DNA from: an uncultured Lachnospiraceae bacterium
GTDB taxonomy: Bacteria; Bacillota; Clostridia; Lachnospirales; Lachnospiraceae
Assembly (NCBI GenBank): GCA_934338765.1
Contig: CAKRHL010000064.1
Location: forward strand, 1 to 10,318
DNA: 10,318 nt
Direction: 5' to 3'
The notes under the pieces were generated by a model. That model was not told the origin of the DNA. It searched no databases and saw only the letters and a program-made list of their open reading frames with translations. How positions within the stretch are numbered: position 1 is the stretch's first letter; every line of letters starts with the position of its first letter. Below are positions 2,175-9,866 of the stretch, one piece after another. The position numbers were made by a program, and so were the translations under genes.

Positions 2175-3179
2175 CTATTGATGGCTCAGATAAATACCAG
2201 CAGCCTTGTTCTTGTAGACATCCACCAGACCATACTTACGATACTTGATGATGTCTGCGTCAGCATCGGGATTTGCGGATGCAGGGATCACATTAGATAC
2301 CACATGCTTGTCATGCTTGATGATGGCAGGCTTATGGATAATCATAAAATTGATAGGCTTTGCAGCTTCCTGCACCATTTCATAGTAAGTACCAATAGAC
2401 TCGGTCTGTGGATTGTTTACCTTGCTGTATACACCACCGCTTTCTGTATAGTAGGTCTTACTGCCTACTACTGCCACATCGGTAGTCTTTGCATACTTGG
2501 CCGTGCCCTTGCGGTAATGGCCTGCTTCCTCTCCCGGTGTTTTACCATCCAACATATCGATGGAAGTGTAAAATCTTCCCTGTGGTACGGGTTTCTTAAT
2601 GGTAAAGGCTGCCAGAATCTCCTTGGACTTATATGTGTCCATCATCAGCAATCCATTCAGTAGATTTACCGTTGCATACAGGATTCTTCCTTCTTCCGGC
2701 ACCTCGTCGTTGTCCATCGTATTCTTTGCTTCCAGTAATTCTGCAAGGAACTCTTCCGGTGTAGCAATCTTCTTGGCTTCGCCCTTGGAAATACCCTTAG
2801 TACCTGCAATGGTTGCAAAAGTGAAGGCATCCGATTCAGGTGCCACTTTGGTACGCATAAGCTCAGCACCAGCCATACCAAATGCAAGGTTATAGGTTTC
2901 CTGGTTGTCCATAGCATCTACGGACAGCTTGGAACCACGATCATAGTTGTACTCCGTGGATACCCACTTGAAATCTACAGTTCCTTTAGTGTAACCACTG
3001 TTACGGTCATAGTCACCAAGACCGGTTACTGCAATCTGGGGATATACAATCTCCTTTGCGTTTGCACCGGCTCTTGCCATTGCAGGATCGCCAGTCAGGT
3101 CACTGGTTACGGATTCTCTCTGGTATACCTCATCAAGCAGAGGCACATAGTTCTTTGCTAATACAATTGTGTTAGGCAT
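2175..3179 (-). CDS. Major capsid protein (HK97 fold)
   Basis: A 334-aa protein that builds the icosahedral shell. Typical features of the Firmicutes HK97-fold family are present: N-terminal LAKNYVPLLDEVYQRESVTS (8-27), an E-loop-like segment with KEIVYPQIAVTGLGDYDRN (42-60), the spine-helix region GMAGAELMRTKVAPESDAFT (101-120), then TIAGTKG, and a C-terminal part INFMIIHKPAIIKHDKHVVS (276-295) ending with DADIIKYRKYGLVDVYKNKA (307-326). It lies directly after the GP20-type scaffold, with AGGGAGG 7 nt before the ATG, as expected for a highly translated gene. Oddity: residues about 229-274, rich in Thr, Tyr and Ser and containing SKTYYTESGGVYSK and GTYYEMV, look like an insertion between two conserved capsid blocks and may protrude on the surface. 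No protease domain is fused. Confidence 0.92.
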   Translation of the reverse strand: MPNTIVLAKNYVPLLDEVYQRESVTSDLTGDPAMARAGANAKEIVYPQIAVTGLGDYDRNSGYTKGTVDFKWVSTEYNYDRGSKLSVDAMDNQETYNLAFGMAGAELMRTKVAPESDAFTFATIAGTKGISKGEAKKIATPEEFLAELLEAKNTMDNDEVPEEGRILYATVNLLNGLLMMDTYKSKEILAAFTIKKPVPQGRFYTSIDMLDGKTPGEEAGHYRKGTAKYAKTTDVAVVGSKTYYTESGGVYSKVNNPQTESIGTYYEMVQEAAKPINFMIIHKPAIIKHDKHVVSNVIPASANPDADADIIKYRKYGLVDVYKNKAAGIYLSHQ

Positions 3180-3191
3180 TTATTTTCCTCC

Positions 3192-3797
3192 CTATTTTGT
3201 CTCCGGCGCAGGCGGCAGTCCCATAGCAGCCCTCATTGCAGCTTCATCTGCATTAGCACTGCTTCCGGTTCTCACCTGTCCGATCAGATTTCCTGTTCCT
3301 ACCGGATTAGGCTCCGGCTCACCGAAGAGCATTTTACTGTCTTCTGCTTCTGTTAAAGTTTTCAATGCTGCGGCAATGTCTTCTTTCTGGTTTTTGGATG
3401 CTTTCAGCGCATTTACATCCAGCAGAGCCATAATTGCCTTAGGATTCTTTCCCTTAGCAGCTGCAATACTTTCCTTTACAAGATCACTGAAGTCCCGATC
3501 CGCAATCTTAGAATCGTAATCTTTCTGAATGTTCTTCTTTTCCTCTTCCAGATCACTGATTCGTTTGTTGAGCCCTGTGACATCCACATCCTTGAATCCA
3601 TCCAACTGGGTCTGCAAATCTTTCATTGCAGTATCATTGGCCTTGATGGTTTCATTCGCTGCGTCCAGCTTCTTGGTCTGGTTGTCATAATCGGTCTGTG
3701 TCTTGTAGTTCTCGAGTACGGCTTTTTCAAAGTCCTTTTTCTTATCCTCCGGCACTTCCAGACCATACTCCTTCATGATTTCAAAAATGTTCTTCAT
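3192..3797 (-). CDS. Capsid scaffolding protein (phage minor structural GP20 family)
   Basis: A 201-aa scaffold of the GP20 family (PF06810 type), which directs procapsid assembly and is then released. The opening MKNIFEIMKEYGLEVPEDKK is the usual family N-terminus. Residues about 35-105 form a long charged coiled coil (QTKKLDAANETIKANDTAMK, then a helix with NKRISDLEEEKKNIQKDY). SIAAAKGKNPKAIMALLDVN (about 110-129) matches the conserved 'GakN.kai.alLD' block of the family, and the C-terminus is flexible and Pro/Gly-rich, ending GLPPAPETK. It lies 12 nt upstream of the capsid gene, with AGGAGG 5 nt before its ATG. No separate prohead protease is present nearby, consistent with scaffold release without proteolysis or with an unidentified protease. 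Confidence 0.9.
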   Translation of the reverse strand: MKNIFEIMKEYGLEVPEDKKKDFEKAVLENYKTQTDYDNQTKKLDAANETIKANDTAMKDLQTQLDGFKDVDVTGLNKRISDLEEEKKNIQKDYDSKIADRDFSDLVKESIAAAKGKNPKAIMALLDVNALKASKNQKEDIAAALKTLTEAEDSKMLFGEPEPNPVGTGNLIGQVRTGSSANADEAAMRAAMGLPPAPETK

Positions 3798-3840: not shown

Positions 3841-3848
3841 TGGGATAA

Positions 3849-3920
3849 TTGCGGAAGCAGGGATCGAACCTGCGACCTCCGGGGCATGAACCCGGCGAGC
3901 TGCCTCTGCTCCATTCCGCC
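3849..3920 (-). tRNA. tRNA-Met (CAT), initiator (fMet) type
   Basis: A 72-nt cloverleaf (5' end at 3920) with all arms intact. Positions 2-7 of the acceptor pair GCGGAA with TTCCGC, while 1:72 is a G/A mismatch. The D stem is GAGC/GCTC, the anticodon stem CCGGG/CCCGG with loop TTCATGC (anticodon CAT), the variable loop AGGTC, and the T stem GCAGG/CCTGC with loop TTCGATC. Three bacterial initiator hallmarks are visible: the unpaired 1:72, an A11:U24 pair in the D stem, and three consecutive G:C pairs (29-31 with 39-41). The variable loop and T stem equal those I recall for Bacillus initiator tRNA. Oddities are a short 7-nt D loop, G37 and C38 instead of the usual AA after the anticodon, and no encoded CCA, so the host must add it. 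It shares the operon's strand. Confidence 0.9.
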
Positions 3921-3930
3921 ACCGTAGAAC

Positions 3931-3986
3931 ACAAAAAGAGCCGCGGATCAATTCACTTGGAATTGATCACATCGGCTCTAGGCTCT
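3931..3986 (-). terminator. Intrinsic terminator at the end of the zinc-ribbon gene
   Basis: On the minus strand AGAGCCG (3979-3973) pairs with CGGCTCT (3943-3937). An inner perfect 9-bp stem GATCAATTC/GAATTGATC (3968-3960 with 3954-3946) closes a 5-nt loop, and TTTTT follows (3937-3933). The left arm encodes the last residues of the zinc-ribbon protein and the stop codon is inside the hairpin. Just upstream is a second copy of AGAGCC, giving a tandem AGAGCC-T-AGAGCCGAT (3986-3971) that recurs at the 9889-9937 terminator. It lies in the middle of the late operon, so read-through is needed to reach the tRNA and capsid genes from upstream. Confidence 0.85.
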
Positions 3987-4114
3987 ACGTTGATTACTAT
4001 TTCATTTTTGCACCTTTTACAATACGCCGGAAAATTAGAAATCTTCGTGCTCGGCAGTATCTTCAAAAAGTGCGGGTTGCCACATTTCGGGCATTTACAC
4101 CATTTAGAACTCAT
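3953..4114 (-). CDS. Small zinc-ribbon protein (cysteine-rich KTR / Com-like)
   Basis: A 53-aa ORF beginning MSSKWCKCPKCGNPHFLKIL and ending VINSK. It carries two CxxC knuckles (C8/C11 in CPKCGN and C32/C35 in YCKRCKN), with an extra C6, arranged as a single zinc ribbon. The pattern W.xCPxCGN...L.I...T.i.NFPxYCxxCKxE..INVxxxx closely follows the 'cysteine-rich KTR' family known from Firmicutes mobile elements, and more distantly the Com-type ribbons of Mu-like phages that bind mRNA. The family is from memory; the cysteines are seen directly. It has its own promoter 42 nt upstream, a weak AGAAAG binding site inside a small hairpin loop, and its own terminator overlapping the stop. This makes it an independent cassette inside the late operon. 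A nucleic-acid-binding regulatory role is likely but unproven. Confidence 0.82.
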   Translation of the reverse strand: MSSKWCKCPKCGNPHFLKILPSTKISNFPAYCKRCKNEIVINVEPRADVINSK

Positions 4115-4194: not shown

Positions 4195-4380
4195 TCATTT
4201 TACACCAGATTTATTTTTCTGTTTCCAAAGTGGTATATACTCTCCACTTTTTACAAGGTTAAAATTTCTTGCGTAATATTCTCTCTCGATATCATATTCT
4301 TCAGGAGTCATATCATTTCTCCAAAATGGCACTTCTTTTAATGTCTCTGTTGCCCAATTATTTTCGTCCATCTTGTTCAA
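4195..4380 (-). CDS. Small acidic/aromatic protein, candidate immunity partner of the minor head C-terminal domain
   Basis: A 61-aa ORF of no recognised family, overlapping the 3' end of the minor head gene by 23 nt. The start chosen is TTG at 4380, because GGGGG lies 8 nt upstream; an ATG at 4371 would give 58 aa but sits 17 nt from that site. The sequence is Trp- and Tyr-rich: ENNWATETLKEVPFWRNDMT, then PEEYDIEREYYARNFNLVKS, then GEYIPLWKQKNK. It is predicted soluble and helical, with no signal peptide or membrane segment. Small unrelated ORFs directly after MuF-type minor head genes with variable C-terminal domains are known or proposed to be cognate immunity proteins. That reading fits the overlap and the AT-rich context but is inference. 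It could instead be an unrelated small phage protein. Confidence 0.7.
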   Translation of the reverse strand: MNKMDENNWATETLKEVPFWRNDMTPEEYDIEREYYARNFNLVKSGEYIPLWKQKNKSGVK

Positions 4381-6271
4381 TCAATTTTCCCCCTTTGGTA
4401 TAATCTCGGAGCAGATTATATACTATCATTTGCTCTCTCTTCGATGTCCGCTCTGCTGTAGATATTATACCCTCTCTTACACTTTTATTCAACTCAGCTA
4501 TTTCATTCGGATATAAATCGTCATAAAAGGTAGTTTCAATAGGGCTTCCTTTTCTCTCAGCAATATACTTTACTCCATCGTTTCTGACAGCTATCATAAC
4601 CGGTATTTGTTCCGTGCTAAGCATAGTTCTCAAATCCGACTCCGAGAACATGCCATCCGTATTATGGTTATGTACAAATGCATACTTTTTATTCATATCC
4701 ATAGTTTTCCAAAAATCGTACCCAACCTCTCCGGGCTCTCCATCGGTCTCATAATTACTCAATTCACCCGTATTCAAATCTACCAAATACATATGTTCAT
4801 TATGGTCTTTTCCGCCAAGTTCAGCCACTTTTCTGCTGGCTTCAGATAGTCCTGCATTAACCTTTTCAGAATAGCCGTCTATTGTAATGGAATAATCATT
4901 ATCTGGATTGAATTCTACGCTACGACCGGTATTTCTAGTGGCATCTCTCGCAGCCGCCTGCATCTGCTTCCATGCCTGTGTCTTCTTCAGATTCGATGTG
5001 CCGCATTCATACCGCAGCCGCGCAGGCTTCTCATTCACTCCGGCCGCCTGGCAGAACTCCTTGTACTCTCTGCGCTTCCTGCTGATCTTCACGTTGATCT
5101 CTTGCGTATCCATTCCAAGAGCCTTGAATGCTTCTTTTTCCCGCTTCAGTGCACGGATATTTCTTTCCATTGCCCGCATTTTCTGCGTAACAGCATAATA
5201 GTCATATTCCTTGCCATTGATAATAACAGGGGACGGCTCCGGGCTCTCCTTCGGGTAACTGGACACTCCCTCAAACCACGGATGATGATTATGCCTGCAG
5301 TTATACCCATACATTCCGAGCGGATCATTCTCATGCGCACCATCCACGCTGTAGCCTGTGGCTCTCCAAAGATCCGTTATATAGTCCTGCCCGATGCGCC
5401 TTGCTTCCGCCCGGTAATCCTGCCCTTCTTTGACAAAATATACACGCCCCTGCCACTGTTCATGGTTGGCATGGCCAATTCCCGTATTTCGGGCCCCCCA
5501 ATGCTTGGAGATATATACCAAGTTCTCTCCAGACTCCATAATATTGTTATCCAGTACCTTCCCGGCCATCTGGTGGCATCCGGTTCTAACCGCCATTCTC
5601 GTGGCAGTATCCAGTTGCATTGAGTACCCCGATGCAAAATCAATAGACCGCAGGCCGCTCTGCGCAAGATTATGTACGGTGTCCTGTATCACCTTGTCCC
5701 GACTGAATGTGCCGGAGCATACTTTTATGATAGCCCGATCCAGTTCCCGCTGATACGCATTTTCCACCGCCTCATAGCCGTTCATGGTTTTAAAGCCGGT
5801 AGTTTGCGTCATATTTTTAAGGGCCCCGGCAGTCTGCTCTGAAAACATTTCCACAAGCCTCGGCAGAAAAGAGTTATCCGTCAACTCCTTAGCGTTCTGT
5901 TTCCACACGGACAGATCATCAATCCATGCCATATCCCCGGCACCAGCTACAATTTCATCATTGGCCTTGTATGCCTCCCGGGTAATGTTATTGATAATGT
6001 TGCGGATCTCCCGTTTATATTCCAAGGTGTTTTTAGCCACCGCCTTCCGGTACTCCGGATCGGACGTCAGCAGCTTCATCGCCTCTTTACGGATTCTTGC
6101 CGGACTGTAGCCCAGTTCCCGCATAGAGTGTGCCTGCAGCTCCGCAGTCCTGGTATATGTCATGGTCTTCTGTATCCTGCGGGCAATATCCACTATAACC
6201 TCATGCTCCAGATATTGGAACAGCGGTACAAGGGCTTCTTCTATGATCTCCAACTGCTCCTCTGACAACAT
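4358..6271 (-). CDS. Phage minor head protein (Phage_min_cap2 / MuF-like) fused to a JAMM/MPN-like C-terminal domain
   Basis: A 637-aa protein, longer than the roughly 350-450 aa I recall as usual for plain minor capsid proteins. Residues 1-340 are the structural part: a helical N-terminus, then HWGARNTGIGHANHEQWQGR (257-276) and GMYGYNCRHNHHPWFEG (319-335), the hallmark blocks of Phage_min_cap2. This protein sits inside the head near the portal, and relatives can be ejected with DNA. Residues about 345-415 are a charged helical linker. Residues about 430-637 form an added domain with VHNHNTDGMFSESDL: H534, H536, S543 and D546 fit the JAMM metallopeptidase motif HxH-x6/7-S-xx-D, and E492, 42 residues earlier, could be the catalytic glutamate. 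The Pro usual after the second His is Asn537. The portal stop and this ATG share one base. Base composition falls to visibly lower GC below about 4920, consistent with an acquired domain. Metallopeptidase activity and toxin role are inferred. Confidence 0.85.
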   Translation of the reverse strand: MLSEEQLEIIEEALVPLFQYLEHEVIVDIARRIQKTMTYTRTAELQAHSMRELGYSPARIRKEAMKLLTSDPEYRKAVAKNTLEYKREIRNIINNITREAYKANDEIVAGAGDMAWIDDLSVWKQNAKELTDNSFLPRLVEMFSEQTAGALKNMTQTTGFKTMNGYEAVENAYQRELDRAIIKVCSGTFSRDKVIQDTVHNLAQSGLRSIDFASGYSMQLDTATRMAVRTGCHQMAGKVLDNNIMESGENLVYISKHWGARNTGIGHANHEQWQGRVYFVKEGQDYRAEARRIGQDYITDLWRATGYSVDGAHENDPLGMYGYNCRHNHHPWFEGVSSYPKESPEPSPVIINGKEYDYYAVTQKMRAMERNIRALKREKEAFKALGMDTQEINVKISRKRREYKEFCQAAGVNEKPARLRYECGTSNLKKTQAWKQMQAAARDATRNTGRSVEFNPDNDYSITIDGYSEKVNAGLSEASRKVAELGGKDHNEHMYLVDLNTGELSNYETDGEPGEVGYDFWKTMDMNKKYAFVHNHNTDGMFSESDLRTMLSTEQIPVMIAVRNDGVKYIAERKGSPIETTFYDDLYPNEIAELNKSVREGIISTAERTSKREQMIVYNLLRDYTKGGKLIEQDGRK

Positions 6272-7659
6272 TAGTCTTCATCCTCTCCATCCAAATTATC
6301 ATCAATCTGCAGCTTTTCATCTACCAATTTCTGTGCCTCCTCTTCCGTGAGACTGTATGCGTCCATCAGATACCAAACCGTGAGCTTCGGAATGTCGAAA
6401 GAGAGCGCATCATTACGTTTGCGTTCCAGTTCTGCCTCCCGATCAGTAATATAACTGTCGTCGAAGTCCACCAGGACCTCCTGCTCCAAATTGAAAGACT
6501 TGCCCTGAAACGTATTGGCAAACCACATCACCGCCCAACAAATATCCTGTATGTATCGGATAGCCTCCTGTCGCTGCCGGTTCAACTCCTGCATCTGATC
6601 CTGACGCTCACCCACATACTCGGTTGCTGTGGTGATCTGTCCATTTTCAAAGCTGTATTTCTTCGTGCCATAGCCGAAGGACATGGACAGCAGAGACAAT
6701 GCCAGTTCAAACGCCTTGGTGATCTGCTCCACACGGATCTCCGGATTATACTCCTGAATCATGCCTTTTTCTTCCGGTAGTTTCTCGCCGGTAAATACGA
6801 ACAACTTCTTTTGCTCCGTGGTCAGCTTCGGCTTACCATTCTCATCGAACTCACATAGTAATTCACTAATTAGAATGATCTTTTCTGACTTATCAAGATC
6901 AGAAAAAAGAACGTTATAACACAGATCCACAACTTTCAGCGCCGGGATTGCATCCCACAACTTCGGCAGCCCATAGCCCTCCATATCATCCAGATTATTG
7001 ACCTCAGCATTCCGCATCACGGCAAATGGCTTCACATCACCCAGTTGTACAACGGTTTTCTTATCTGTTATCTCAGTACCTTTATCGTCAAACACATGTG
7101 TCTCTGCAATGTAATTGCCATCCTCGCCAATGGTAAACAGTACCAGCGTGGTCTGCTTCTTTCCCTTGGACAAAGCACTCCCCGAGAAAGCAGCCTCGAT
7201 CACAATATCATCTTCCACGGTCAGCGGCATAAAAGCGTCTGCCTCCACGTAATTTAATTTGATATTACCGCCTTTCACAGATCCATCATCCATAAAGGTG
7301 GCATTGTCCAGACGGATGTAACAGGCCGTTGTCCCGTCCGCTGAGGTCTTTTCCAACTGCTTGCGGTACTGAGTATTAAATTTACTGCCGTCAAGTACTG
7401 CTGCAACATAGTCTGCCTGTTCGCCGTCTCCGGCATTGATCTCCAGTACCTCACACAGGTTTGCATCATCTGAGCAACACCGCTTTCCGAAATTCAACCG
7501 GCTCAGTTCGTAAGAGATCCCGTTCAGCGTTTTGCGCTTATGGAAGTCCTCTATCACCCTGTTGCTGTACCAGTCATCGCATACCTGAATCTTGCTCAGT
7601 GCATTATCATTGACCGTGTATCCCTTTTTCTGTAAAAAATTCTTTACGCATCCTTCCAT
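6271..7659 (-). CDS. Portal protein (A118/SPP1-like)
   Basis: A 462-aa protein forming the dodecameric DNA channel at the capsid vertex. The sequence resembles the A118-type portal family (TIGR01542-like). Signs are the short N-terminus with WYSNRVIEDFHKRKTLNGIS, the central GDVKPFAVMRNAEVNNLDD block followed by MEGYGLPKLWDAIPALKVVD and LCYNVLFSDLDKSEKIILIS, and MSFGYGTKKYSFENGQITTA followed by TEYVGERQDQMQELNRQRQE, which matches the conserved 'S.gt.sf.....TATEV.s...d....i...q' region preceding the crown. The C-terminus is acidic (DDNLDGEDED). The ATG has AAGGAG upstream, starts 10 nt after the TerL stop and shares one base at the end with the minor head gene. Length is as expected for the family and the reading frame is intact. 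Confidence 0.9.
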   Translation of the reverse strand: MEGCVKNFLQKKGYTVNDNALSKIQVCDDWYSNRVIEDFHKRKTLNGISYELSRLNFGKRCCSDDANLCEVLEINAGDGEQADYVAAVLDGSKFNTQYRKQLEKTSADGTTACYIRLDNATFMDDGSVKGGNIKLNYVEADAFMPLTVEDDIVIEAAFSGSALSKGKKQTTLVLFTIGEDGNYIAETHVFDDKGTEITDKKTVVQLGDVKPFAVMRNAEVNNLDDMEGYGLPKLWDAIPALKVVDLCYNVLFSDLDKSEKIILISELLCEFDENGKPKLTTEQKKLFVFTGEKLPEEKGMIQEYNPEIRVEQITKAFELALSLLSMSFGYGTKKYSFENGQITTATEYVGERQDQMQELNRQRQEAIRYIQDICWAVMWFANTFQGKSFNLEQEVLVDFDDSYITDREAELERKRNDALSFDIPKLTVWYLMDAYSLTEEEAQKLVDEKLQIDDNLDGEDED

Positions 7660-7669
7660 TTTCTTCTCC

Positions 7670-9004
7670 TTATCTTTTTAAATCTATATACTCCACGAAA
7701 TCCAACCACGTATAGCAGAAGCTGTCCCACCTGTCGTTGACGTTTCCTATGTTCTTGTCCTCCGGCTGATCCGGGTGGTCCTCATCCCACCGCAGGGAAG
7801 CAATAGCTTTTCTGGTCTGCATACAGCGCTTATTGATTTTGAGACGCCCACTGTTAAGCAGCAGATCAACGGTCTTGGGGCGCTCTGATATCTCATTTTT
7901 ACGACACCCCTTGATGTTCTGGTAAGGCAACCTTGCCTCTTTGGCTGCACTCCGCAGACTGTTGATCATGGTAGGACTAGCGCTGTCTGGGAACACCCAG
8001 TCCACCCTGCCATACTTTTGAATGCACGTACGGTAGAACTCCACAAACTTGTCGCAGATCTTTTTGCTGTCAATATCTTCTGACAACGGTAACCCATCCT
8101 CTTCCAGTGCCTTGAAATCATGATACCTGTTCTGATAGCCGGTAAGGTTGTATGTTGTCATAGAGCCGTTACCGCCGAAGTCAATACCCATTACAATCTT
8201 GAAGAACGGGACTTTCAGTTTTCCTCTATCATCAAAGATATCCGCATCCTCAAACAGATACTGGGAATCATCATCGGCAAAGTATCGGAAGATGATACCA
8301 GATGCCAGCACCCACAGCCCTGATATGAACCGATCATAAAACACACCCTTGTACATACGCTCATATCGTTCGATAATCTCCTGTGCAAGGCTCGGGTTAT
8401 CCCGCATCGTGAAATGTACCCGGATCAGATTCTTTTCGGTGATCTTGTCGATCCATTCCAGTTTTATGTAATGATCGGGACCTTCCGGGTTGCAGTTGAA
8501 CCAATACTTTGACCCTTCCACGGAGCATCGGCCTGTTGCCTGGTTGACAAACGACTCCGGCATCAGGGCTACCTCATCGAAGAATACTCCGGCCAGTGTG
8601 ATACCCTGGATCAGATCCTGCGATCCCTCATCCTTTCCGCCAAACAGGTAAAAGGTATTCTCCTTATCCCCCTTCCGGACAACCATATAATTCTCCGAAC
8701 GGTGCTCTTCGACCTGGTATCTCCTGGATAGAAGCATACGTTTTAGCTGTCCAACTACATTACGGCGGAGTGACTGGATCGTCTTACCACACAACGCAAG
8801 GTTCTGCCCGTCAAACGTTTCCATCGCCCACAAGACGAACGACAGGGACATAACCGTGGTCTTGCCCGAACGAATAGAGCCATCACAGATAATGCCGTCC
8901 TTATCAGCATACGGACTCCCCGGCATCCACCATTCTAAGACGACCCTCTGCTTATGGCTGAATGATGTGAACTTAAACAGTGCCTTACGTTTCAACCGTA
9001 TCAT
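7670..9004 (-). CDS. terL: Terminase large subunit (TerL)
   Basis: A 444-aa packaging motor and headful nuclease. Visible motifs are Walker A GSIRSGKTT (42-50), Walker B GVFFDE (139-144) with catalytic E144, and the coupling motif NCNPEGP (170-176). The RNase H-like nuclease carries acidic residues at D275 (MGIDFGG), D340 (FPDSAS) and probably D427 (DRWDSF). This is the PBSX XtmB/SPP1-type family (Terminase_3 like). It overlaps terS by 20 nt. The listed ATG at 9004 directly abuts AAGGAGG, which is too close. A TTG at 8995, 9 nt after AGGAGG and starting LKRKALF, is the better-spaced start and would shorten the protein by three residues. All catalytic residues are intact, so the gene is probably functional. 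Confidence 0.95.
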   Translation of the reverse strand: MIRLKRKALFKFTSFSHKQRVVLEWWMPGSPYADKDGIICDGSIRSGKTTVMSLSFVLWAMETFDGQNLALCGKTIQSLRRNVVGQLKRMLLSRRYQVEEHRSENYMVVRKGDKENTFYLFGGKDEGSQDLIQGITLAGVFFDEVALMPESFVNQATGRCSVEGSKYWFNCNPEGPDHYIKLEWIDKITEKNLIRVHFTMRDNPSLAQEIIERYERMYKGVFYDRFISGLWVLASGIIFRYFADDDSQYLFEDADIFDDRGKLKVPFFKIVMGIDFGGNGSMTTYNLTGYQNRYHDFKALEEDGLPLSEDIDSKKICDKFVEFYRTCIQKYGRVDWVFPDSASPTMINSLRSAAKEARLPYQNIKGCRKNEISERPKTVDLLLNSGRLKINKRCMQTRKAIASLRWDEDHPDQPEDKNIGNVNDRWDSFCYTWLDFVEYIDLKR

Positions 9005-9866
9005 CCTCCTTGAAGGTTGCCACTACATCGCCCTGCAGCGCATCCATAAAGCCGTCATCCTCGTACTCGGGAGATTCCCCGCCCTCTTTCTCGGCTCTCC
9101 GCTTCTCATATTCCGCCCGGTACTTGCTCTCCGGGTGCATCAGGAAATACTTGGTCAGCCAGTCGAAAGCCTTTTGCTTGTCCGCCAGCTTTATAGATAC
9201 CCCGTCCTTTCCCTGCTTCACCTCCTGGATGATCTGCGTATCCACATTATTGGAATCAGCCAGTCTGACCGCATTCACCTCTTTAGTAAGGTACTGCTTG
9301 GTGTCGGGATCCTTGACCGGGCCGAACGCTCCCATGACCTGCACGTTCTCACGCCCGAACGACATATAATTACCAATGTCCGCAAATGCGATACGCATCT
9401 GAAGTTCCACCACATCCTCGGTGCTGGTGACGATCTGCTGACGTTTCAACTCCTTCAGGCGTTCTATCTCTGCTCGAACCTTATCTTTTGTCAGCAGTCG
9501 TGAGCCATTTGCAATCGCTGACTCATAACTGCATCCATATGCCTTTTGGTAGCTCTGCGCCGCATTGAATGTCCGGCTGTAATAAATACAGAACATCTGC
9601 TGTTCTGCTGTAAGTTCATCGTTCCTCAGTGTCTCTCTCGTCCCATCATCAATGACCGGTTTCTTTTCCGTTCTCTTCTTAACCGAACGTTCGCTTTTCT
9701 TGCTCTTGTCGCATTCCGAACGTTCGCCATCCCATCCGTGCGTACTCTTCCACCGCCGTACCGTTCCCGGAGGTACCTCCAGTTCGGCCGCAATGTCTAC
9801 CAGCTTCATGCCCTGCTTATATAGTTCGTATGCTTTATCACTTAATGGGTTCTTCTTTGCTGCCAC
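8985..9866 (-). CDS. terS: Terminase small subunit (TerS) with N-terminal HTH
   Basis: A 293-aa DNA-recognition subunit of the packaging motor. Residues about 8-44 form a helix-turn-helix (LYKQGMKLVDIAAELEVPPG then TVRRWKSTHGW), as in the phage terminase small subunit N-terminal family. Residues about 46-75 are a basic, repetitive linker (ERSECDKSKKSERSVKKRTE). Residues about 84-240 match Terminase_2/XtmA, with LTAEQQMFCIYYSRTFNAAQ and SYQKAYGCSYESAIANGSRL followed by DIGNYMSF and KLADKQKAFDWLTKYF. The C-terminus is charged. The start is GTG at 9866, 6 nt after a perfect AGGAGG. An intrinsic terminator ends only about 10-15 nt upstream of this site, leaving no room for a promoter between them. 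The gene contains two identical 10-bp palindromes. Confidence 0.92.
   Translation of the reverse strand: MAAKKNPLSDKAYELYKQGMKLVDIAAELEVPPGTVRRWKSTHGWDGERSECDKSKKSERSVKKRTEKKPVIDDGTRETLRNDELTAEQQMFCIYYSRTFNAAQSYQKAYGCSYESAIANGSRLLTKDKVRAEIERLKELKRQQIVTSTEDVVELQMRIAFADIGNYMSFGRENVQVMGAFGPVKDPDTKQYLTKEVNAVRLADSNNVDTQIIQEVKQGKDGVSIKLADKQKAFDWLTKYFLMHPESKYRAEYEKRRAEKEGGESPEYEDDGFMDALQGDVVATFKEDDTVET
9684..9726. repeat. Two perfect 10-bp palindromes inside terS (candidate pac element)
   Basis: CGAACGTTCG occurs at 9684-9693 and 9717-9726, exactly 33 bp apart, close to three helical turns. Both encode Glu-Arg-Ser in the linker after the HTH. In headful phages such as P22 and SPP1 the packaging-initiation site lies in or beside the small terminase gene, so these may be TerS-binding sites. 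They may also be a by-product of an 11-codon protein repeat. Confidence 0.55.

Follow-up and report, generated by a model that had tools for sequence, protein, structure and literature searches.

A putative MuF polymorphic toxin with a JAMM-like domain and an overlapping candidate immunity gene in the head region of a tailed phage

A muF-type gene and a small overlapping gene downstream of the portal

We analysed positions 1 to 10,318 of contig CAKRHL010000064.1 (assembly GCA_934338765.1, an uncultured Lachnospiraceae bacterium); this whole stretch of 10,318 nucleotides is called the window below. Its minus strand encodes packaging and head genes of a tailed phage, among which the gene directly after the portal gene encodes a MuF-type minor head protein of 637 amino acids (aa). 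The constant N-terminal part of this protein is followed by an exchangeable domain bearing a JAMM-like metallopeptidase signature, and a small gene overlaps the 3' end of the muF gene. We consider it likely that the two genes encode a toxin-immunity pair of the MuF polymorphic type, in which the small protein protects against a JAMM-like zinc hydrolase that is probably a peptidase; we treat this assignment as putative. The features concerned are as follows.

6271-7659, minus strand: portal gene (PHROG profile phrog_533)
4358-6271, minus strand: muF-type minor head gene with a JAMM-like C-terminal domain, an open reading frame (ORF) of 637 aa matching PF06152 over residues 2-408, directly after the portal gene
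4970-6271, minus strand: constant part, MuF2 domain and linker, residues 1-434, defined by identity to relatives with other C-terminal domains
4358-4969, minus strand: exchangeable JAMM/MPN-like domain, residues 435-637 and stop, defined by the invariant catalytic set, AlphaFold2 and VIA-align
4796-4798, minus strand: codon of E492, the predicted catalytic Glu, found in 175 of the 175 rows with a residue there
4634-4672, minus strand: HNHNTDGMFSESD, with H534, H536 and D546 (predicted zinc ligands) and S543, exceptionless among the residues present
4195-4380, minus strand: small gene overlapping the muF 3' end, candidate immunity protein (kin in 17/17 domain loci, purifying selection, orphan copies)

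An invariant JAMM-like signature on a predicted MPN fold

In Pfam, Phage_min_cap2 (PF06152) matches residues 2-408 with an E value of 3.7e-103 and no credible match lies beyond residue 408; the PHROG minor-head profile extends to residue 526. Within the C-terminal region, VHNHNTDGMFSESDL (residues 533-547) contains H534, H536, S543 and D546, and E492 precedes H534 by 42 residues. A preliminary description of the window had read these positions as the JAMM layout Glu...HxH...SxxD, with Asn in place of the usual Pro and a His-to-Ser loop shorter by one residue, and they are indeed as it described: six residues, not seven, separate the second His from the Ser. The published JAMM motif is EXnH[ST]HX7SXXD, with H[ST]H and x7 spacing (PMC300881; here and below, statements about published work refer to the parts of each source that were covered). 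The window protein departs from this canonical form in having HNH and six residues before the Ser.

A homologue search by region with residues 421-637 found 132 proteins, of which 120 were listed. None of the 121 sequences examined (these 120 of 132 homologues and the window protein) lacks E492, H534, N535, H536, S543 or D546; the trimming of this set relied on the His/Ser/Asp motif, and every sequence matched that motif. We also used a wider, profile-made alignment of 209 rows (184 distinct), from which locus L048 had been excluded beforehand, and counted a column when at least 80% of rows have a residue. Among the residues present, six of the 202 columns counted are without exception (G486, E492, H534, H536, S543 and D546), and five of these six make up the catalytic set. 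In ten of the 209 rows the aligned domain is incomplete, and for this reason one or more of the five catalytic positions is missing from each of them. Asn537 is common but variable (174 of 183, with Pro in one). The residues of the MPN/JAB superfamily active site (Glu, HxH, Ser, Asp) are thus kept, wherever a residue is present, across 184 distinct sequences; E492, H534, H536 and D546, the positions on which the preliminary description had rested its conservation test, proved invariant, as did S543.

AlphaFold2 modelled residues 431-637 with a predicted local distance difference test (pLDDT) of 92.1 and a predicted template modelling score (pTM) of 0.87. When the predicted domain was compared with solved structures by VIA-align, the first 22 rows were JAMM/MPN proteins by title, counting BubCD in row 9, which we take to be one. 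Among solved folds the nearest are those of deconjugating enzymes, two of which (8tyx and 9ea4) come from bacterial ubiquitin-like systems, and peptidase-type JAMM structures stand at 7.7 to 6.0 as against 5.6 for RadC. The predicted structure is therefore MPN-like, of the MPN/JAB superfamily type that the preliminary description had anticipated.

No family in Pfam, NCBIfam, PHROGs or PADLOC exceeded its cut-off for the C-terminal domain, and a PDB sequence search with the domain profile returned no match up to an E value of 10. In the Pfam scans of the window protein and 21 members, RadC (PF04002) and DUF4329 (Tox-JAB-2) gave no row; Toxin-JAB1 (PF15659) stayed below its cut-off, with a weak match in one of the 21 members (E 0.013), as did Prok-JAB (PF14464; E 0.16, also in one of 21). 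Annotated phage and plasmid records held no match for the domain. A scan of viral contigs with the single domain sequence yielded none that was confirmed, and the same scan with the domain profile yielded 11 loci.

The domain occupies an exchangeable slot

A query with residues 1-420 retrieved 18 viral loci at 43-79% identity, some of them near-identical to one another. Four end before the C-terminal part (L041, L043, L047 and L052). The other 14 same-N-terminus loci, in which that part is at least partly visible, carry the following ends.

PBECR2 ends, 2 of 14: L039 (E 2.5e-10) and L042 (E 1.5e-9)
CdiA_C end, 1 of 14: L049 (E 1.1e-16)
HExxH-type ends, 4 of 14, by eye: L040, L046, L050 and L044 (partial)
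Other ends, 5 of 14: L045 with L051; L053, L054 and L055
Second JAMM-like domain with HNHPTNIPPDGAD, 1 of 14: L048
No extension, 1 of 14: L056

Nine relatives with other ends are 42-83% identical to the window protein over residues 423-434, and past residue 435 their identity falls to 4-28%; two JAMM-bearing controls keep 65-79% there. Since relatives with other C-terminal domains diverge at this point, we place the domain boundary at residue 434/435, near position 4969. The span given in the preliminary description, 4358-4984, takes in residues 430-637 and the stop codon. Moreover, the domain stands behind more than one kind of MuF protein. Among the 120 listed of the 132 homologues, it follows PF06152 in 100, PF04233 in 17, PF25310 in two and an unnamed protein in one; ten MuF proteins from loci with both the domain and the small gene comprise six PF06152, two PF04233, one PF25310 and one unnamed. 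Judged by these sequence comparisons, the JAMM-like domain is an occupant of a swap slot of the MuF head protein.

The HExxH-type ends (the four above and that of L022) were assigned by eye, their Pfam matches being weak or absent; they have small downstream genes of their own wherever the DNA extends that far. L045/L051 and L053-L055 represent two more MuF C-terminal types with no Pfam family over cut-off, and ORFs of 88 and 75 aa lie behind them where DNA is present.

The small gene is conserved and persists without the domain

The ORF at 4195-4380 overlaps the muF stop and encodes 61 aa from TTG 4380 or 58 aa from ATG 4371. All 17 loci found with the domain (11 viral and 6 genomic, some near-identical) have a related ORF in this position, that of L005 being seen only in separate small-gene searches. 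All 24 distinct small-gene sequences (53-91 aa as cut) carry YxP[LI]W[KQ]Q near their end. Among ten sequences, with the first eight codons omitted, nonsynonymous divergence (pN) is below synonymous divergence (pS) in 45 of 45 pairs, with means of 0.23 and 0.83, and the small ORF is therefore a translated gene under purifying selection. Its product is well conserved (alignment A4, which excludes L029) and is predicted to be helical (pLDDT 85.4, pTM 0.64).

Queried alone against viral contigs, the small gene was found in 25 of them (some near-identical), with the domain just upstream in 23, although in L021 and L027 the upstream domain is partly cut by the contig end. The two exceptions, L020 and L022, are orphans behind MuF proteins with other extensions. 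In L020, on the contig of L042, the order is a MuF gene with a PBECR2 end, a short ORF, a frame ending LVGGKLIEQNGQGK and an intact small gene; the frame ending LVGGKLIEQNGQGK resembles the tail of the JAMM-like domain. The MuF gene of L022, of the HExxH type, has a 66-aa downstream ORF of its own, behind which stands an intact small gene. Among same-N-terminus loci with at least 260 bases past muF, the small gene is present in one of 12, namely L042.

We extended the search to 397 genomes of the family of G002 (Lachnospiraceae; holds L012), where the small gene was matched in six. In G002, G303 and G307 it lies beside the domain, the G307 copy being divergent and lacking PLWKQ. The copy in G067 is an orphan, 58% identical to the window small gene over 53 aa, and 116 bases past it lies a gene that shares 73% identity over 48 aa with the downstream gene of the HExxH-type MuF of L040; no ORF in the 15 kb around this orphan matched the ten MuF proteins of the comparison set. 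In work on polymorphic toxins such an arrangement is termed polyimmunity. The match in G304 is an acetyltransferase and was taken as chance. That in G041 is degenerate, with one in-frame stop, and its neighbours gave no clear match, and it was not counted as an immunity array; it lies on the minus strand amid a run of short ORFs (L080, G041:C1:520000-538000) that is possibly an old immunity array, two weak matches there (E 0.003 and 0.009) being left unused. Annotated phage records held no match for the small gene. Given its linkage to the domain and its orphan copies, the small gene probably encodes the immunity protein for the JAMM-like domain.

A second JAMM-like clade and unfused relatives

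The domain of L048 has 54 homologues, borne on PF06152, PF04233, one PF25310 and one unnamed protein. All 54 retain E500, N548, H549, P550 and D559, and 53 of them have H547; among the printed sequences the Ser position is occupied by T, S or D. Compared by profile, the clade of the window and that of L048 match with a probability of 90.9 and an E value, for a single comparison, of 1.2e-6; the window profile matches L048 at E 2.3e-4. The overlapping small genes of the L048 clade differ from that of the window: they encode 42-45 aa in L048, L058 and L059, and L060 and L061 have another type, of 66-67 aa, a grouping made by eye.

In the same 397 genomes the domain was matched in nine. It is fused to MuF in G002, G303 and G307 (divergent there), and it forms unfused proteins of 185-210 aa in the other six. 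These six JAB-like proteins have HNHP with the same six-residue spacing before SxxD, and no Pfam family exceeded its cut-off in them. They lie as follows.

L067, 1435-2019, plus strand: unfused JAB-like protein
L068, 1402-1959, minus strand: unfused JAB-like protein
L069, 1384-1992, minus strand: unfused JAB-like protein
L070, 654-1244, plus strand: unfused JAB-like protein
L071, 1378-1989, minus strand: unfused JAB-like protein
L072, 1144-1776, plus strand: unfused JAB-like protein

Neighbouring genes of the window

The remaining features assigned in the window, all on the minus strand, are listed below; connector genes are also present in the head region, and phage records held no near match to the window.

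8985-9866, minus strand: terminase small subunit
7670-9004, minus strand: terminase large subunit
3953-4114, minus strand: Cys-rich KTR zinc-ribbon gene, 53 aa (PF14205, E 6.7e-13)
3848-3921, minus strand: tRNA-Met(CAT), between the zinc-ribbon and scaffold genes
3192-3797, minus strand: scaffold, SPP1-type (PF06810)
2175-3179, minus strand: major head protein

The zinc-ribbon gene follows the variable slot, and similar genes, recognised by eye, occur in L014, L039, L040, L042, L045, L046, L048, L050 and L053, whose C-terminal domains differ. Besides the window, five of 16 loci scanned have a tRNA-Met at a like place (L039, 4454-4526; L040, 7905-7979; L042, 7477-7552; L046, 5898-5971; L048, 6352-6425); the corresponding place holds an uncertain tRNA in L045 and a tRNA-Arg in L056. 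The tRNA in the row of head genes may be an anchor for exchange of the variable slot.

Interpretation and alternatives

The window protein has the make-up of a MuF polymorphic toxin. Its MuF domain (PF06152) is encoded after the portal gene (phrog_533), its variable extension of 203 aa, exchanged at residue 434/435, exceeds the 100 aa expected of such extensions, and the 61-aa downstream gene, whose family recurs in 17 of 17 loci, falls under the 150 aa expected of the partner. The preliminary description had proposed a capsid-borne peptidase delivered with phage DNA that acts as a toxin, as an inhibitor of ubiquitin-like host defences or in head maturation. Of these roles the first is supported because the domain is exchanged, the overlapping gene is conserved, orphan copies are displaced from the domain and one of them, in G067, stands in a mixed array. 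We suggest that the constant N-terminal part would join the head near the portal, as SPP1 gp7 does, and that a few copies carried in the virion would enter the next cell along with the DNA. The cartridge would be a JAMM/MPN-fold zinc hydrolase, most likely a peptidase or isopeptidase, in which H534, H536 and D546 would bind zinc, E492 would activate water and S543 would support the intermediate. The injected domain would then cleave a host protein, and the overlapping 58-61 aa gene product would block the enzyme in producing cells or lysogens; our guess is that YxPLWKQ serves as an active-site plug.

Foldseek, taken by itself, gave no significant PDB match (none of 407 under E 0.001), a caveat on the MPN-like fold. 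The extension contains no known toxin domain over cut-off in Pfam or NCBIfam, although sister extensions match CdiA_C and PBECR2, and we therefore class the protein as a toxin-like candidate. With regard to a temperate lifestyle, no integrase exceeded the cut-off on the six partial genomic contigs that carry the domain.

The alternative that survives best keeps the toxin and immunity roles and has the JAMM-like domain process nucleic acid or nucleotides, as was proposed for Tox-JAB-1, Tox-JAB-2 and RadC (Zhang 2012, PMC3482391). We think this unlikely, and clearly prefer a peptidase over a nuclease, because RadC ranks below the peptidase-type JAMM structures and no residue of the Glu/His/His/Ser/Asp set has been lost, points that nevertheless leave the substrate unsettled. 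It is rather improbable that the injected domain is instead an anti-defence enzyme that removes ubiquitin-like tags (e.g. in type II CBASS or Bil) and not a general toxin. The deconjugating nature of the closest solved folds, two of them from bacterial ubiquitin-like systems, speaks for it, as does the fact that CBASS employs such conjugation together with the JAB-type protease Cap3. However, a dedicated partner that persists alone, and beside the downstream gene of another MuF system, better fits protection from a toxin, and PADLOC found no defence model for the domain or the small gene, the hosts not having been checked for such systems. As a long shot, an injected JAMM-type deconjugase might strip host ubiquitin-like tags (of type II CBASS, Bil or an unrecognised pathway of gut Firmicutes); the 58-aa partner would then be a natural JAMM inhibitor with YxPLWKQ filling the active-site groove, and orphans would shield resident elements and hosts from such phages. 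The small protein might also serve the domain as a chaperone or an activator, or be its substrate. Its conservation and predicted helical structure would agree with such roles, but its intact copies without the domain in L020, L022 and G067 make them improbable. Finally, head maturation by the domain, or another assembly function, is very unlikely indeed: the domain does sit within a head protein, and Pfam and PHROG scans of window genes revealed no prohead protease apart from it, but N-terminal parts 43-79% identical bear unrelated ends or, in L056, none, for which reason a head protease was rejected, and the scaffold is of the SPP1 type (PF06810), which is not known to need a protease.

By these results a JAMM-like enzyme recurs as a cartridge on three MuF families, and its small cognate protein persists alone, as immunity genes do. 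If the toxin and immunity assignment is correct, the pair would provide a protease toxin delivered by virions and open to experiment, together with a very small natural inhibitor of an enzyme with the JAMM fold. The question raised in 2012, of whether peptide or nucleic acid is the target of JAB toxin domains, would then become directly testable. In the main texts of the open-licence literature covered, we found no description of a MuF protein with a JAB-like domain and such a small-gene pair.

Comparison with known systems

MuF polymorphic toxins were described as MuF1 or MuF2 proteins encoded after the portal, with a variable C-terminal extension and a small downstream ORF (Jamet 2017, PMC5576092), all of which the window shares. 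That study assigned a metallopeptidase domain to 20% of 191 putative MuF toxins and proposed that the toxins enter with the DNA; its main text, in the parts covered, makes no mention of JAB, JAMM or MPN. RadC is a JAB-fold domain in polyvalent proteins of mobile elements, and the MuF partners named in the covered parts of the same work are PBECR, 2H and RelA/SpoT, not JAB (Iyer 2017, PMC5512222). The window protein resembles RadC in its predicted JAB fold and its place in a mobile element, but has no Pfam RadC match.

Closer in kind are Tox-JAB-1 and Tox-JAB-2, JAB-fold toxin domains with immunity genes and the residues E, HxH, S and D (PMC3482391). The window domain shares with them the predicted fold, these residues and an adjacent partner gene, whereas they are listed with delivery systems other than MuF. 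Tox-JAB-1 moreover has NxxxE and the lipoprotein partner Imm65, and the window has neither, residue 488 being Lys. With the JAMM isopeptidases PfJAMM1, Rpn11 and AMSH/Sst2 the domain has its predicted fold and catalytic residues in common, but it has HNHN and x6 instead of H[ST]H and x7, and identity is 10-14%. Among MuF toxins, the tested ones in the work covered are ADP-ribosyltransferases and alarmone synthetases: in Bxa-Bsi/BAH and Apk2, MuF is fused to an antibacterial enzyme next to a small immunity gene whose immunity was tested (PMC11699363). The window shares their MuF fusion and adjacent small gene; the enzyme is an ADP-ribosyltransferase in Bxa and an alarmone synthetase in Apk2, whereas the window domain is JAMM-like.
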